Both the position numbers and the translations under genes were made by a program. Under the pieces are notes generated by a model. The model had not been told where the DNA came from. It was given only the letters and a program-made list of their open reading frames with translations, and searched no databases. A stretch of DNA of 64,000 nucleotides from Flavobacteriaceae bacterium (GTDB lineage Bacteria; Bacteroidota; Bacteroidia; Flavobacteriales; Flavobacteriaceae): the NCBI GenBank assembly GCA_947446865.1, contig CANFHX010000011.1, forward strand, positions 1-64,000, read 5' to 3'. Each line of letters begins with the position of its first letter. The first letter of the stretch is position 1. Shown here in pieces: positions 9,435 through 16,713 of the stretch.

Positions 9435-9515
9435 CATTTCTCTCCAAAAAAAATCCTCTTTTTTTTTACATTTATATTTTATTTTTTTAGATTTATGGAA
9501 ATTAAGCCTGAAAAA

Positions 9516-10031
9516 ATGAAGTATATTCTTTTCCTTATTTTTTTTATTAATACAAATACAATTTATTCTCAACCAAAGAATTGTTTTGATATTGCGAGAA
9601 AAGGAACTCTAGACGAAATTATTACGGAATATTCTAGTAATAAAAAAGTTATTGATTCTGTCGATACAAATTCCACTAGTATGTTGATTCTTGCTTGTTA
9701 TAGAGGCAATGACGATGTGGCTAAATTTCTTATAGAAAAAAAAGCAAACATCGATTATGTTAGTGGTAATGGAACTGCTTTAATGGCTTGTGTTGTAAAA
9801 GGTAATGATGAAATGGCGAATATTTTGTTAAAAAATAAAGCAAACCCTAATTTAGCAGACGCTAATGGAATTACTGTATTAATGTATGCAGTTCAATTTC
9901 AAAATGAAAAAATAGTTCACTTACTATTAGAAAATAAAGCAGATAAACGTATTACAGACAAACAAGGTAAAACGGCTTTCGAATATGCTGTTTTCTCAAA
10001 AAACGAATTAATTATTAATCTTTTAAAATAA
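9516..10031 (+). CDS. Secreted ankyrin-repeat protein
   Basis: Signal peptide MKYILFLIFFINTNTIYS; ankyrin repeats such as NGTALMACVVKGNDEMANILLKNKANPNLADANGITVLMYAV; track start is 9495. Confidence 0.8.
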   Translation: MKYILFLIFFINTNTIYSQPKNCFDIARKGTLDEIITEYSSNKKVIDSVDTNSTSMLILACYRGNDDVAKFLIEKKANIDYVSGNGTALMACVVKGNDEMANILLKNKANPNLADANGITVLMYAVQFQNEKIVHLLLENKADKRITDKQGKTAFEYAVFSKNELIINLLK

Positions 10032-10036
10032 AAACT

Positions 10037-10789
10037 ATGAAAAAAAATTTACTTTTATGTTTATCACTTGCTATTGGAAGTTTTTCCTACGCACAATTTT
10101 CAACTGGTATTGTAAATCTTACAGGTTCCACTAGAACTATTCAAATTAATACAAATACTACAACCGTTACAATGACACTTACTGGTGACAGTACGCATTG
10201 GTTAGGAGTAGGCTTTAATGGATCTACAATGGCATTAGTTACGGATATGTTTATTTGGAATGCAACTGCGAATAGGGATTATGTTGCTCCAGGCGGACAT
10301 TTTATGCCAATAGCAGATGCTTCGGGATCTCAAAGTTGGACAATTGTATCGGATACTGTTGTTGGAACTACAAGAACTGTAGTGGCAACAAGACCTTTAG
10401 TTTCTTCAGGGGATTATACTTTTTTAAATGACAATTCATCCATTTCAATTATTTTTGCTGAGGGTTCCACAACAACTTTAGGAAATCATGGAACCAATCC
10501 GCATAGTGCTCAAACCTTAACAAGAACCCAATTAGGAAACGAAAAGTTTTCTTTAGAATCTGCATCGGTTTATCCTAATCCTTCGAATGGAAATTTTACC
10601 ATAAAAACTAATTCTACATTGTCTAAAATTAATGTTTATTCCCAAACAGGCGCTTTTGTTAAAACAATTGAAGTAAGTAATGATTCTAAAGATATCGATG
10701 TAAGTATTAATGGTCTTTCATCTGGAGTATATTTATTAGAACTACAAAATAATGTTGAAAAATCATGGAAGAAAGTTGTTATTAACTAA
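10037..10789 (+). CDS. DOMON-like secreted protein with T9SS type A sorting domain
   Basis: Signal peptide; HWLGVGFNGSTMALVTDMFIW; C-term VYPNPSNGNFTIK...GVYLLEL...KKVVIN. Confidence 0.75.
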   Translation: MKKNLLLCLSLAIGSFSYAQFSTGIVNLTGSTRTIQINTNTTTVTMTLTGDSTHWLGVGFNGSTMALVTDMFIWNATANRDYVAPGGHFMPIADASGSQSWTIVSDTVVGTTRTVVATRPLVSSGDYTFLNDNSSISIIFAEGSTTTLGNHGTNPHSAQTLTRTQLGNEKFSLESASVYPNPSNGNFTIKTNSTLSKINVYSQTGAFVKTIEVSNDSKDIDVSINGLSSGVYLLELQNNVEKSWKKVVIN

Positions 10790-10826
10790 ATAAATTTGCA
10801 ATTTCATTCCGTTAAAAATAAATATT

Positions 10827-10862
10827 TTAGGAGGGTTTATTAGAGTCCTCCTAATTTTTTTT
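10827..10862 (+). terminator. Rho-independent terminator
   Basis: TTAGGAGG-N12-CCTCCTAA followed by T-run. Confidence 0.85.
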
Positions 10863-11273
10863 TTAAAAATTAAAGATTTTGAATTATTATGGAATTCGAA
10901 ATAACTATTAATAGATTTGGGCTTATTTTTTTGCTTAAACAATTCTTAATGGTTAGTTTTTGCAACAAACATACCTTCGATATTTATAATTATTATTAAT
11001 ATTAGGGGTTAAAATAGATATTTAAAACAATTAAAAGCCATTTTTTTAATTATTTAATAATTATGTAAATTTCTGATAAACATTTTTTAACTTATTGATA
11101 TTCAATTAATTATTAATAAATCTTCCTAAAACAAAATTAAGATAATATTAAGAAATTTTTCTTTGCCAAATTATCTTATACTTTATATTTGCAACGAATA
11201 ATATATAAATTATATGAATTAACGATGTCTTGTTGATTTCAATAATTATCAATTAAACAAATTGTACAATAAT

Positions 11274-11696
11274 ATGAACAAAAAAATGAAAATAGTATTA
11301 ATCATTATCGGAGCTTTAATTTTAGGTGGCGTTATAGCCGGGCCTAAGATTAAAGATTATATGGTTAATAATTTAGGAAAAAGAGATTTGCAATCGGAAG
11401 AGGCTGCTTTCACTTTGAAAACTAAAGATATTTTGGCAGAATTTACAGTAAATGAAGCTGCTGCTAACAAAAAGTATCTTGAAAAACCGGTTGTTATATC
11501 GGGTGTAATTACTTCAGTTAATGGAAAAGAAGTAATTATTGATGAAGTTGTGGTTTGTGGTTTTACAACTGCAGATGCTTCTTTAAAAGCAGGACAAGCC
11601 GTTACTGTTAAAGGTCGTGTAACAGGTTATATTAACCTAACTGATATGGGAATGGCAAGTACTGTAAATATGGATCAATGTTCAATAAATAAATAA
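11274..11696 (+). CDS. OB-fold (tRNA_anti-like) membrane-anchored/periplasmic protein
   Basis: N-terminal TM MKIVLIIIGALILGGVIAG; KKYLEKPVVISGVITSVNGKEVIID...GQAVTVKGRVTGY; track start is 11262. Confidence 0.7.
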   Translation: MNKKMKIVLIIIGALILGGVIAGPKIKDYMVNNLGKRDLQSEEAAFTLKTKDILAEFTVNEAAANKKYLEKPVVISGVITSVNGKEVIIDEVVVCGFTTADASLKAGQAVTVKGRVTGYINLTDMGMASTVNMDQCSINK

Positions 11697-11707
11697 CTAA
11701 ATTAAAA

Positions 11708-12577
11708 ATGAAATTACTAAAAATCACACTTTCAGTTTTCTTTCTTTTTTGTTTTGGCTTAGCCAATGCACAAGATGATTTGATGAACGAATTAAATGCT
11801 ACTAAATCTGACAAGAAAGAAATTTCTTCAGCAGCTTTTAAAGGATTGCAAGTTGCTAACATGCAGTCTACTAAACTTCCTGCTAAAGGAGAATTCTATT
11901 TTTTAGTTTCGCACCGTTTTGGAGATTTAACAGATGGAATTAATAACTTTTATGGTTTAGATGCTGCAACAACAAAATTTGGCGGTATTTATGGAGTTAC
12001 AAATTGGCTTTCATTAGGAGTTGCAAGAGTAAAAAACAACAAAACATTTGAATTTGCTGCAAAATATAAATTTGCTAATCAAATGGATGGTGGTTTTCCT
12101 GTAACAATTGTTGGATATAATACAATGGATATAAGAACGGATTTAAAAACGGATGCATATCCAGATTTAAAAGCAAACGATCGATATTCTTATACTTCAC
12201 AATTGATTATTTCTAGAAAATTGAATAATTCAATATCACTTCAAGTTAATTCAATATTAGTTCATAAAAATTTATATGAAGCATTAACAGATCAAAAAAA
12301 TACTTATTTAATTGGAAGTGGTGCAAGATGCAAAATTTCAAAAAGGTTAAGTGTCAATTTAGACTATGCAGCAAGATTGAATTTACCTGAATCTTATAAC
12401 TTTGTTTACCATAATCCTATAACTTTAGGTTTGGATATTGAAACAGGTGGGCATGTTTTTCAATTGGTATTATCTAATAGCCAAACAATGAATGATGTTG
12501 CATATTACACTTCCGCATCAGGAATTAAAGGTGGTAAAGGGATTTTCTTCGGATTTAACATGTATAGAGTTTTTTAA
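11708..12577 (+). CDS. DUF5777-like outer-membrane beta-barrel protein
   Basis: Signal peptide; FYFLVSHRFGDLTDGINNFYGLDAATTKFGGIYGVTNWLSLGVAR; C-terminal FGFNMYRVF. Confidence 0.72.
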   Translation: MKLLKITLSVFFLFCFGLANAQDDLMNELNATKSDKKEISSAAFKGLQVANMQSTKLPAKGEFYFLVSHRFGDLTDGINNFYGLDAATTKFGGIYGVTNWLSLGVARVKNNKTFEFAAKYKFANQMDGGFPVTIVGYNTMDIRTDLKTDAYPDLKANDRYSYTSQLIISRKLNNSISLQVNSILVHKNLYEALTDQKNTYLIGSGARCKISKRLSVNLDYAARLNLPESYNFVYHNPITLGLDIETGGHVFQLVLSNSQTMNDVAYYTSASGIKGGKGIFFGFNMYRVF

Positions 12578-12588
12578 AAAAAATAGAT

Positions 12589-13005
12589 ATGAAAAAGATA
12601 AAATTAATTACAGCAACAATAGTATTAGTAGGAATTACTTTCTTTATTTCTTGTGATTCTAGAACATTTGATGAATTGAAACCTGCGGTTCCAGCAGCTA
12701 ACGTATCTTATGCAAATGATATCGCACCTATTTTAGATGCTAAATGTGTAAGTTGCCATAAAGATTCTCAAAATACTGGAACTTTCCCAGATTTAGATAC
12801 TTACCAAAATGTTTTAGATTACCAAAATGATAATGGTTTAAATGGATATTCTAATGGTCACCAAACACCAGTTGCAGCAAGTTTGTTGTGTAGTGTTCAA
12901 GCTAGTTCTTGTACTCAAGATAGAATGCCTAAAAGTGATTCTCCTTTAACTGATGCAAGTATAACGGCTATCCAAAATTGGATAGATAATGGTTATAAAC
13001 CATAA
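12589..13005 (+). CDS. c-type cytochrome-like lipoprotein/periplasmic protein
   Basis: Lipobox-like ITFFISC; single CVSCH heme motif in YANDIAPILDAKCVSCHKDSQ; downstream DRMPKSD. Confidence 0.8.
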   Translation: MKKIKLITATIVLVGITFFISCDSRTFDELKPAVPAANVSYANDIAPILDAKCVSCHKDSQNTGTFPDLDTYQNVLDYQNDNGLNGYSNGHQTPVAASLLCSVQASSCTQDRMPKSDSPLTDASITAIQNWIDNGYKP

Positions 13006-13046
13006 TATTAAATAAACATAAAAATTAATAATTTTAAATTAAAATC

Positions 13047-13580
13047 ATGAAAAAGATTATAGTAACAATCGTATGTTTCGTTTTCTCAACAGTAATGTTT
13101 TCACAAAAAATGATGACTCGTTCTGGAGAAATTAAATTTGACGCAACCGTTCCGGGAGCAATGGATCCTGTTATTGCAACAAATAATACCGTTTCCTCTA
13201 TATTAGATAAAACTACAGGAGATTTCGTAGTGCAAGGTTTAGTAAAATCCTTCAAATTCAAATCCCCTTTAATGGAAGAGCATTTCAATGAAAACTATAT
13301 GGAAAGTGATAAATTTCCGAAAACAAGTTTCAAAGGAAAAGTTGTTGGATATGATGGAAAATCTGGTTCTTATGAAGTAGAAGGTGATTTAACTATCCAT
13401 GGAGTAGCAAACAAAGTAAAAACTAAAATGACTGTTACTGCTACTGATAGTAAAACTGCTATTGTTGGTGCTTTTGTAATTAAATTAATTGATTACAAAT
13501 TGGAAGTACCTGCTATGGCTAAGAAAACGCTTGCAGAAACAGCTAAGATTTCAATTAAAATTGAATTAGAAAATAAATAA
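13047..13580 (+). CDS. YceI-family protein
   Basis: Signal peptide; GEIKFDATVPG..., KFPKTSFKGKV, YEVEGDLTIHGVANKVK. Confidence 0.9.
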   Translation: MKKIIVTIVCFVFSTVMFSQKMMTRSGEIKFDATVPGAMDPVIATNNTVSSILDKTTGDFVVQGLVKSFKFKSPLMEEHFNENYMESDKFPKTSFKGKVVGYDGKSGSYEVEGDLTIHGVANKVKTKMTVTATDSKTAIVGAFVIKLIDYKLEVPAMAKKTLAETAKISIKIELENK

Positions 13581-13615
13581 TAATTAATCAAAAATTAAAC
13601 TAAAAAATTAATACT

Positions 13616-14434
13616 ATGAAAAAAAATTATAAACTTGTTATTATTGCATTGCTTTTTTGTTTTGCAACATCATTAAAGGCACAGACAGCTGGAACAATGA
13701 CTTTTACTTTTACAAACCCAAAACATACAACTGGTAATTACGAAACAAATGGCCGTTATGCAATGGCTGTATGGATTGAAAGTTGTGCTACTTGTGGTGC
13801 AGGAACAACTGCAGGAACTTCTACTTATGTAAGAACAAATATGCGATACTGGGGTGGTAACACAAGTGACCATTTGCCTACATGGGTTACAAAAGCAGCA
13901 TCAAGCACTACAGGAGCAACTACTGGAGCAACCCAAACCATTTTTACTGCAAGAACAGTTACTTGGAATGGAACTAATTCTGCTGGAACTACTTTGTTAG
14001 CAGATGGAAATTATAGAGTATGTATTCAAGAAACTTGGGGTCATGGTACCGCTACAGTAACTAGATATTTTCCTTTTGTTAAAGGAGCTGTTATTTACAA
14101 TAACACTACAGATGTTACTGCAGATGCTAATTTTACTAGTATAACTTTAAACTGGACTCCAACTCTTGCTAATGATACTTTTGCTAAAGGACCAGAAGTT
14201 GTAGTATATCCAAATCCATCTAAAGGAATTTTTAATTTAGATATAAAATCTCAAATTAATAATATTACTGTTGTGAGTATTTTAGGAGCTGTTGTTTATG
14301 AAGAAAACATCGATGCTAGTTCTACCGTTACTACTAAAAGTATTGATCTTTCTAGTTTTAATAATGGTGTTTACATTATTCATGTTACCGGAGATACTGG
14401 ATCTACAAGTTATGAAGTAGTATTAGATAAATAA
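13616..14434 (+). CDS. DUF2271-like protein with T9SS type A sorting domain
   Basis: AMAVWIE...TTGATTGATQT...VTWNGTNSAGTTLLADGNYRVCIQETWGHG; C-term VVVYPNPSKGIFNLDIK...GVYIIHV. Confidence 0.78.
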   Translation: MKKNYKLVIIALLFCFATSLKAQTAGTMTFTFTNPKHTTGNYETNGRYAMAVWIESCATCGAGTTAGTSTYVRTNMRYWGGNTSDHLPTWVTKAASSTTGATTGATQTIFTARTVTWNGTNSAGTTLLADGNYRVCIQETWGHGTATVTRYFPFVKGAVIYNNTTDVTADANFTSITLNWTPTLANDTFAKGPEVVVYPNPSKGIFNLDIKSQINNITVVSILGAVVYEENIDASSTVTTKSIDLSSFNNGVYIIHVTGDTGSTSYEVVLDK

Positions 14435-14454
14435 TACAATCCATTTTTATAGTT

Positions 14455-14488
14455 AAAAGGCATTCTAATTTAGAATGCCTTTTTTTCG
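14455..14488. terminator. Bidirectional terminator between convergent genes
   Basis: AAAAGGCATTCTA att TAGAATGCCTTTT followed by Ts. Confidence 0.9.
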
Positions 14489-14489
14489 T

Positions 14490-15494
14490 TTATTTAATTT
14501 CGGTAAGTAATTTTTTAAGTTTTGGAGTTTCATAAAACTTGTAATCTCCATTGGTATCCGAATAAATTAAAAACGCTTGTAATTCTTTATGTTTTTTTAG
14601 AAACGCTTTTGCTTTTTCCAATCCCATAACTAATATTCCGGTAGCGTTTGCATCAGAGGTGATGCATTCTTTAGAAATAACAGAAACACTTAAGAGATTA
14701 TTTTTAGTAGGATAGCCAGTTTTTGGGTCAATATGATGTGAATATTTTACATTATCTTCTATAGTGAATTTTCTATAGTTACCAGATGTTGCAATGGCAT
14801 ATCCATCTAGTTTAATAATCATTAGGTCTGGATTATCTTGGGTTTTAGAATCAATTGGTTTTTCAATTCCAATACTCCATTTTTCTCCATTTGGCATTAA
14901 TCCTTTTACAAATACTTCACCACCAATTTCTACTATATAGGATGTTATTTTTTTAGAATTTAAAAAAGCAGCAATAACATCTACCGAATAGCCTTGTGCA
15001 AAAGCATTAAAATCTAAAGAAACTCTAGCATCATGCTTTATTATTGTATCTCCTTTTAATTCGATTAAATTAAACCCTACAAATTTTAAAATGCTGTCTA
15101 TTATTTTAGGTTCTATTTTTTCTTTCTTACCAGGACCAAAACCCCAGGCATTTACTAATGGATAAACGGTTGGGTCAAAAGCACCATTGGTTTTTGTATA
15201 AACTTCTTTGGCTTTTTTGAAACAAGTAATGAAATAATGATCTAAAGCAACATTTTGTTGGTTGGAATTTATTCTAGATATAATAGAATTTGGATTGTAT
15301 GTGGATACCGATAAATCAAAATCATGTAAAATACTATCTATTTCATTTTTGAAAAATCGTTCTTTTTCATCTAAATAGGTAATGTGGTAAGTTGTGCCTT
15401 GTGCAAATCCTTCAACTACCATAGGATCTATTTGACAAAAGCCTTTTATTGAAATAATAAATAGAAGGAAGGTGTATTTTAGTGTTTTTTGCAT
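14490..15494 (-). CDS. apbE: FAD:protein FMN transferase (ApbE)
   Basis: GTTYHITYLDE; LDFNAFAQGYSVDVIAAFL; EIGGEVFVKG; HHIDPKTGYP. Confidence 0.93.
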   Translation of the reverse strand: MQKTLKYTFLLFIISIKGFCQIDPMVVEGFAQGTTYHITYLDEKERFFKNEIDSILHDFDLSVSTYNPNSIISRINSNQQNVALDHYFITCFKKAKEVYTKTNGAFDPTVYPLVNAWGFGPGKKEKIEPKIIDSILKFVGFNLIELKGDTIIKHDARVSLDFNAFAQGYSVDVIAAFLNSKKITSYIVEIGGEVFVKGLMPNGEKWSIGIEKPIDSKTQDNPDLMIIKLDGYAIATSGNYRKFTIEDNVKYSHHIDPKTGYPTKNNLLSVSVISKECITSDANATGILVMGLEKAKAFLKKHKELQAFLIYSDTNGDYKFYETPKLKKLLTEIK

Positions 15495-15498
15495 GATT

Positions 15499-16713
15499 TT
15501 ATTTGCAATTAATTTTCGGATATTTTAATTTATAGATTCCGCCAAGTTGTTTCGATTTGGATATGTCTTTACAGCCTTCGCTAACTTTGGAAGTTTTTAA
15601 TAATAATTTACCTCTTTTTAGATAATATTCTGGAAGGTATTCATTGATTTCAATGGCTTTATTGAGGTTTAAAAGAGCAGATTTAAAATCATTCAATTTT
15701 TCATATTCTAAAGCAATAAAATAATAAGATTTATCATTTTTAGAATCCAATAAAAGAGACTTTCTATAATCGGAAATACTTGCTTTATGTAAGTTTAATT
15801 TTCCTTTGGCGAAAGCCCTCTGTAAATAAGCAGAGGCAAATTTTGGATTTATTTTTAATGCTTCGTCAAAATTTTGAATAGCATTTTTATAATTTTTTAA
15901 ATAACAATTCAACACTCCTTTTTTATAATAAGCGCTATCGGTTTTTGTTGTGATTTCTTCTTTATTATATTTTGATAAGGCAGGTAAAAATTCTTTATAA
16001 TTCCGTTTTAAATTGCCATAATACAAATCCTCCTCTGCAGTAGAATTATAATCTATTACTTTTTCAAAATCTATAATTGCTGCTAAATAATTCTTCTGTT
16101 GGGCTTTTATCCAACCACTATAATAATAGGCTTTATCACATTTTTTATCCAATAAAATTGCTTTATTACAATAATCTAATGCTAAATTATAGTTTTTGTT
16201 TTGGGCTTTTACAAGACCTATGTCGGCATAAACCTTATAATTATCGTCTCTTTTTTTTAATGCAGATTCAAAATCGTTTAGCGCTACAGTATTTTTTTGT
16301 AAGGCAAATTCTTGAATTCCTTTAAAATAATAAGCATCCGAATTGTTAGGCTCATACTTAATTGCCTTTATATAGTCGGCTATTGCTCCTTTTCTGTCTT
16401 TAATCTTTTCTTTAGCCATAGCCCTAAAAAAATAACTGTCTGCAAAAGTTGAATCGATTGTAATTTGAATAGAATAATCGGCAATAGCACCAGTATAATC
16501 TTTCAATATATCCCTTATAAGCCCTCTGTCATTATAGGCTGCCGAATCTTTAGGATATAAAGCAATCAATTTACTTAAACACTCAATAGATCCCTTAAAA
16601 TCATTAATGTAAAATTTCTGCGAAGTGCATTCTCGCAATTCTTCTTTGGTATTTTGTCCAAATAAATTTACAAAACCGAATAGTACAATTAATAAGATAA
16701 CTAATTTCTTCAT
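15499..16713 (-). CDS. TPR-repeat protein
   Basis: Multiple TPR units, e.g. AYYFKGIQEFALQKNTVALNDFESAL, SAYLQRAFAKGKLNLHKASISDYRKSL. Confidence 0.92.
   Translation of the reverse strand: MKKLVILLIVLFGFVNLFGQNTKEELRECTSQKFYINDFKGSIECLSKLIALYPKDSAAYNDRGLIRDILKDYTGAIADYSIQITIDSTFADSYFFRAMAKEKIKDRKGAIADYIKAIKYEPNNSDAYYFKGIQEFALQKNTVALNDFESALKKRDDNYKVYADIGLVKAQNKNYNLALDYCNKAILLDKKCDKAYYYSGWIKAQQKNYLAAIIDFEKVIDYNSTAEEDLYYGNLKRNYKEFLPALSKYNKEEITTKTDSAYYKKGVLNCYLKNYKNAIQNFDEALKINPKFASAYLQRAFAKGKLNLHKASISDYRKSLLLDSKNDKSYYFIALEYEKLNDFKSALLNLNKAIEINEYLPEYYLKRGKLLLKTSKVSEGCKDISKSKQLGGIYKLKYPKINCK

Follow-up and report, generated by a model that had tools for sequence, protein, structure and literature searches.

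The closest described counterparts of the locus treated here are the DUF2271/ApbE systems of the PepSY-DUF2271-DUF4198 type, for which DUF2271 has been shown experimentally to be an ApbE substrate with a conserved [S/T]GA[S/T] site, and for which an interchange of cytochromes and flavins has already been proposed (Meheust et al., 2021; PMC8238504); T9SS (type IX secretion system), Bacteroid* and YceI do not occur anywhere in its main text. We analyzed a window of 64,000 nucleotides (the whole stretch, positions 1–64,000 of contig CANFHX010000011.1, Flavobacteriaceae bacterium, assembly GCA_947446865.1) from a 3.07 Mb Flavobacterium genome, in which a first-pass annotation had proposed a flavin- and heme-based redox module encoding a DOMON-like protein, an OB protein, a DUF5777-like barrel, a cytochrome c (CytC), YceI, a DUF2271-like protein and ApbE. 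All the genes it named are intact and lie where it had placed them. The interval it gave (10037–15494) left out two partners, an ankyrin gene at 9495 that goes with DOMON and a TPR gene at 15499 that goes with ApbE, and the locus is best bounded at 9495–16713, with nine genes. Judging from sequence comparison, we lean, by a modest degree, towards reading this locus as an envelope electron-transfer module with T9SS-delivered terminal carriers at the cell surface. The proposal of a flavin/heme envelope redox module with two T9SS components agrees well with the comparative evidence, whereas the role in redox stress suggested alongside it finds no specific support.

Results

OB-DUF5777-CytC-YceI is a near-invariant core among 80 DUF5777 loci from species-level Flavobacteriia genomes, annotated by blastp with the window proteins: CytC and YceI lie downstream of DUF5777 in all but one or two of these loci, and OB lies upstream in nearly all, contig-end cuts excepted. 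DUF5777 is present in 116 of 297 sampled Bacteroidota genomes; YceI lies within 1.5 kb of it in 25 and CytC in 24 of 30 short Bacteroidota loci, and the DUF5777-YceI-CytC trio is again present in 20 longer loci from many families. A gene order confined to this strain had been named beforehand as grounds for refuting the module; the neighborhood is instead found in dozens of genomes across the Flavobacteriia, and the association therefore exceeds chance. No mention of DUF5777, alone or with YceI, was found in the literature covered, subscription journals lying outside that coverage. Within the core, the lipobox Cys22, the single CxxCH motif and Met113-Pro114 of CytC (12589–13005) are each kept in at least 90% of 80 homologues, indicating a class I, His/Met-ligated monoheme lipoprotein, and its Pfam cytochrome c matches are weak and under cut-off. 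The OB protein starts at the ATG at 11274 (the listed TTG start is at 11262) and has two conserved cysteines, C95 and C136. DUF5777 terminates in YRVF, the final Phe being frequent in outer-membrane barrels, and the YceI family binds polyisoprenoids. PF03640 secreted-repeat proteins were also seen close to the DUF5777 core, at L186 9891–11498 and L162 297–698 (L- and G-numbers denote individual compared loci and genomes).

The genes flanking this core are replaceable. The usual flank is either an ankyrin-DOMON pair or a DUF2271-like gene, the second mostly with a convergent apbE: among the 54 loci with enough flanking sequence, 31 carry DOMON only, 15 DUF2271-like only, one both and seven neither, and the double arrangement is limited to the window and L034 (2/81 loci). 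The single locus envisaged by the first-pass annotation is not supported, as it joins two units, DOMON and DUF2271/ApbE, that as a rule stand in for one another beside the core. Parsimony on the concatenated-core tree requires at least six switches between DOMON and DUF2271-like, and our claim is one of repeated switching rather than of proven exclusion. A Fisher test of exclusivity (p 2.6e-7) ignores kinship; since loci from relatives do not count as independent, it was discarded as a measure of significance, and the significance of mutual exclusion was dropped on the outcome of a phylogenetic pair test (p 0.25). The window and L034 both belong to a DUF2271-like clade, but their DOMON proteins are 37% identical, whereas the window protein is 76% identical to that of L068, from another clade, which suggests that DOMON was gained independently in the two lineages. 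A DOMON-like label at L147 was rejected as a tail artefact, Pfam finding the sorting tail alone.

Other loci bring further redox proteins to the same core. A plastocyanin-type cupredoxin with a T9SS tail is encoded between OB and DUF5777 (L188/L140, at L188 7222–7797; L152 2351–2938), Rieske 2Fe-2S proteins occupy the usual carrier's place just upstream of the core (L092 8984–9406, L185 8093–8527, L187 8725–9171), and diheme c lipoproteins occur near it in L045, L061 and L082. The strongest argument for electron transfer lies here, because the recurrent extras are small redox proteins, a regularity that is independent of any one family label.

The DOMON protein of the window likely binds heme b, and the alternative of a sugar ligand, which had initially been left on an equal footing, is less likely. 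Heme-binding members of the DOMON family use Met/His or similar ligands, and 40/40 homologues keep both predicted ligands, Met65 and His151. The AlphaFold model (predicted local distance difference test score, pLDDT, 89) matches in Foldseek searches of the PDB the cytochrome domain of cellobiose dehydrogenase (CDH) and the heme-b gamma subunit of ethylbenzene dehydrogenase as top hits (4qi3, E 1.2e-4; 2ivf_C, E 3.9e-4; probability 1.00), followed by the DOMON domain of dopamine beta-hydroxylase, pyranose dehydrogenase cytochrome b and Nxr gamma, with no convincing PDB match besides DOMON-type structures. It is this invariance, together with the matches to heme-b cytochromes, that points to heme b. 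The core of the window protein matches PF03351 under the curated cut-off (E 1.8e-6); the family label is borne out through its relatives, 36 of 37 of which match the profile (best 1.4e-11). Ankyrin and DOMON genes are adjacent in almost all DOMON-bearing loci.

The DUF2271-like protein is predicted to be an ApbE substrate. Its label, too, draws on family evidence, as PF10029 is found in 10 of its 14 motif-keeping relatives (best 3.9e-6). A profile alignment of these relatives with true DUF2271 by hhalign (E 0.0014, probability 18%) places their D-A-L-T-G-A-T-R type site on D-A-I-T-G-A-S-V; the window protein reads G-A-T-T-G-A-T, with TGAT at the aligned column. The [S/T]GA[S/T] motif occupies this column in 17/28 homologues and occurs eight times elsewhere in 7881 residues, and Thr is retained at the site in 25/28. 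The possibility that the window TGAT arose by chance, raised by several close relatives without the motif, was rejected given its recurrence at the same column in the wider set. Foldseek returned no significant match for the model, a result that weighs little against DUF2271 because sequence searches find no solved relative for true DUF2271 either; the C-terminal half is similar to the immunoglobulin (Ig)-like domains of FlgD. Weak PF10029 matches in other classes (L171–L181) were set aside as mostly FlgD or unrelated reading frames. ApbE itself carries the motifs HHIDPKTG and SDANAT in register with its homologues, and the window genome has a second ApbE gene beside DUF3570, with no FMN_bind protein found in that genome. 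Furthermore, TPR and ApbE form a single 562-aa reading frame in L020 (5389–7077) and appear likewise fused in L025 and L030, suggesting that the TPR protein at 15499–16713 works with ApbE.

Two related arrangements were recorded elsewhere. Contig 1 of the same genome (L019 8295–9952) encodes two tandem T9SS-tailed DUF2271-like paralogues with neither a nearby ApbE nor the site motif. True DUF2271 clusters of Bacteroidota (L208 2390–6624, L163–L170) have the order ankyrin-DUF2271-PepSY, with ApbE and a siderophore receptor close by in L208, so that ankyrin proteins are found alongside redox clusters of both kinds.

Both the DOMON and the DUF2271-like proteins are predicted T9SS surface cargo, as had been proposed: Por_Secre_tail is detected in the products of 10037 and 13616 (E 1.7e-14 and 1.9e-13), and the genome encodes a full-length SprA, a T9SS component. 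Since a whole-protein profile that included the tail proved uninformative (323/398 genomes matched), tail-free cores were used in its place.

A second CytC-DUF5777 pair is found on contig 15 of the same genome (L182 4787–10944), in an operon with the order diheme c-CytC-DUF5777-86 aa protein-4Fe-4S-NrfD-MG-like-cytochrome c, the 4Fe-4S protein being of the dicluster type. This operon is kept in two relatives (L220, L221), and L222, from another family, has a diverged version that includes a hexaheme cytochrome. The placement of CytC-DUF5777 within an NrfD/4Fe-4S operon therefore argues for a respiratory setting, probably linked to quinol.

The window locus itself probably comprises three transcription units (Table 1). 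Six consecutive plus-strand genes for exported proteins had been described; the genes stand, but they are probably split over more than one unit, because a terminator-like hairpin and a promoter match separate DOMON from OB. That promoter match is the sole intergenic one on the plus strand in the locus; its consensus gives 11 matches in the window against 5.1 in block shuffles, and both promoter and terminator assignments are consensus matches only. The encounter with apbE, earlier termed head-on, is properly convergent (tail-to-tail).

Table 1. Predicted features of the locus at 9495–16713 of the window.
Feature	Position	Strand	Basis or remarks
Probable unit A: ankyrin, DOMON-T9SS	9495–10031, 10037–10789	+	5 bp gap
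Exported ankyrin-repeat protein	9495–10031	+	Pfam Ank, E 5.7e-24
DOMON-T9SS protein, predicted surface heme-b cytochrome	10037–10789	+	PF03351 and Por_Secre_tail
Predicted axial ligands Met65 and His151	codons 10229–10231 and 10487–10489	+
Terminator-like hairpin, end of ankyrin-DOMON unit	10827–10854	+	12-pair stem and T run
Candidate Bacteroidota-type promoter TTG-N18-TATATTTG, ahead of OB	11163–11191	+	consensus match
Probable unit B: OB, DUF5777, CytC, YceI, DUF2271-like-T9SS	11274–14434	+	gaps of 11, 11, 41 and 35 bp
OB-fold protein, membrane-anchored, tRNA_anti-like	11274–11696	+	PF12869, E 2.6e-14
DUF5777 outer-membrane beta-barrel	11708–12577	+	PF19089, E 1.7e-78
Monoheme cytochrome c lipoprotein (CytC)	12589–13005	+	CVSCH codons 12745–12759; lipobox Cys22; predicted distal Met113
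YceI-family lipocalin-like exported protein	13047–13580	+	PF04264, E 8e-15
DUF2271-like T9SS protein, predicted surface carrier of flavin mononucleotide (FMN)	13616–14434	+	relatives match PF10029
TGAT, predicted flavinylation site, Thr106	codons 13922–13933	+	alignment with true DUF2271 site
Terminator-like hairpin between convergent units B and C	14455–14483	+	13-pair stem and T run
Probable unit C: TPR then ApbE	16713–14490	-	4 bp gap; convergent with unit B
ApbE FAD:protein FMN transferase, signal peptide	14490–15494	-	PF02424, E 1e-81
Exported TPR-repeat protein	15499–16713	-	TPR domain; 4 bp ahead of apbE

Discussion

In an electron-transfer module of the kind we favor, a constant inner part, consisting of the CytC lipoprotein, the DUF5777 barrel, YceI and the small membrane-anchored OB protein, would connect the outer membrane with electron pools in the periplasm or the membrane. 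Electrons would pass between the quinol or periplasmic pool and the surface, with CytC and DUF5777 at the outer membrane and YceI perhaps handling a quinone-like ligand. The outer, surface-side carriers would be interchangeable; in this locus they would be a DOMON protein with heme b and a DUF2271-type protein bearing FMN, each a T9SS export. FMN attachment to Thr106 by ApbE would take place in the periplasm and precede passage through the T9SS. The computation establishes the gene content and order, their conservation, the carrier swap, the conserved residues at the ligand and modification sites and a DOMON fold; cofactor loading, surface location and electron flow through these proteins are steps that we infer.

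Several observations weigh against this reading. We know of no electron-transfer function for DUF5777, and its barrel, at about 250 residues, probably lacks the room to enclose a cytochrome in the manner of MtrB. An inner-membrane quinol oxidoreductase is absent from the window locus, some core loci have no recognizable additional carrier, and the phylogenetic pair test of carrier exclusivity yields zero pairs one way and about three the other (p 0.25). On the flavin side, the window DUF2271-like protein has no PF10029 match even at E 1, the hhalign probability of the profile alignment with DUF2271 is low (18%), and 11 of 25 ApbE-adjacent copies have lost [S/T]GA[S/T] at the site. G002, G014 and G026 have one ApbE each, next to a DUF2271-like gene; FMN_bind and DUF3570 proteins were not found in these genomes, and the DUF2271-like copies are without the motif in all three. 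Either ApbE tolerates a degenerate site or another substrate exists.

These last observations lend themselves to a different account, which we regard as doubtful, in which the DUF2271-like protein is no longer flavinylated and acts as a structural or ligand-binding surface protein, ApbE being a remnant or serving other proteins. The decay of the motif, which extends to all three genomes with a sole ApbE, the two motif-less paralogues elsewhere in the genome and the FlgD-like C-terminal half all fit it. Yet ApbE remains intact and adjacent in the motif-decayed loci, G002, G014 and G026 offer neither an FMN_bind nor a DUF3570 substrate, 25/28 homologues retain Thr at the site and the window copy has a full TGAT. 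Also doubtful, at quite low probability, is the idea of unrelated envelope genes sharing a merely stable neighborhood: neighbor conservation alone is no proof of a shared function, and within clades the housekeeping genes on the flanks hold their place as well, but the core order persists across families while its flanks change, the swapped neighbors belong to one functional class and CytC-DUF5777 is re-used within a respiratory operon. Lower still stands redox-stress defense or repair, in which YceI and the cytochrome would detoxify oxidants close to the outer membrane and which we consider highly improbable. Stress has been linked in other bacteria to YceI and to certain periplasmic ankyrin proteins, but no peroxidase, catalase, Msr or thioredoxin is present among the locus genes scanned, and no such gene was recognized as a recurrent neighbor.

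Among specific roles, the leading candidate is iron acquisition through a surface reductase of ferric or heme iron, in which the surface heme or flavin protein would reduce Fe(III) ahead of TonB-dependent or porin uptake, although taken by itself we deem it rather unlikely. In several Flavobacterium loci a set comprising an extracytoplasmic function (ECF) sigma factor (FecI), FecR and a TonB receptor lies directly upstream of the core; it was noted at L101 5453–9454 and also in L093, L096, L098, L092 and L074, pointing to surface-signaling control. Ankyrin and PepSY genes accompany true DUF2271 in its Bacteroidota clusters, joined in Spirosoma by ApbE and a nearby siderophore receptor, and one genome has a ferritin gene after the core. 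Furthermore, a TonB-ankyrin-"predicted periplasmic protein" set and a YceI gene of R. anatipestifer, candidate orthologues only, are up under iron limitation (PMC5429918). On the other hand, the window locus has no iron gene, FecIR systems serve other substrates too and most of the carriers need iron themselves. Two relatives have a Crp/Fnr regulator instead, and it is because such regulators occur in other genomes that iron reduction stays a rival to the more general electron-transfer reading.

Going one step further, we tentatively raise the possibility, which we hold to be somewhat less than evenly balanced, that DUF5777-CytC(-YceI-OB) constitutes a Bacteroidota-wide, hitherto undescribed outer-membrane conduit with plug-in, T9SS-delivered heme b, FMN or blue copper carriers and no multiheme cytochromes. 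If so, the Bacteroidota would own a route to surface redox chemistry that dispenses with multiheme cytochromes. The electron-transfer reading provides a testable function for DUF5777, present in 116/297 sampled Bacteroidota genomes, and for the T9SS-tailed divergent DUF2271-like and DOMON proteins, and, if true, would add T9SS surface cargo to the settings in which ApbE flavinylation and heme-b DOMON proteins occur. With heme, flavin, copper and iron-sulfur carriers replacing one another naturally on a single core, the system would likewise be useful for asking why bacteria pick a given redox cofactor.

The novelty lies in a core built around DUF5777, in the predicted export of both kinds of carrier by the T9SS and in the variety of carriers found with a single core. 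The locus shares with the PepSY-DUF2271-DUF4198 systems an exported ApbE whose gene adjoins that of a DUF2271-type protein carrying an [S/T]GA[S/T] site (Meheust et al., 2021; PMC8238504), but has no PepSY or DUF4198 among its genes (nine, 9495–16713, scanned for PepSY); its DUF2271-like domain is divergent and T9SS-tailed, and its core is DUF5777-CytC-YceI-OB. The DOMON protein resembles the CDH cytochrome domain, ethylbenzene dehydrogenase gamma and Nxr gamma in fold and Met/His pattern, yet it is a stand-alone, T9SS-tailed protein and not a dehydrogenase domain or subunit. Like the NrfD/4Fe-4S quinol oxidoreductase operons, one of which harbors a paralogous CytC-DUF5777 pair in this very genome, the locus encodes that pair, but it does so without NrfD or a ferredoxin subunit. 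Lastly, the combination of an outer-membrane barrel, a c-type cytochrome and a predicted surface redox protein recalls the MtrCAB conduits, from which the window locus differs in its monoheme cytochrome, its small barrel and the lack of a multiheme surface cytochrome, the predicted carriers holding b heme or FMN in its stead.

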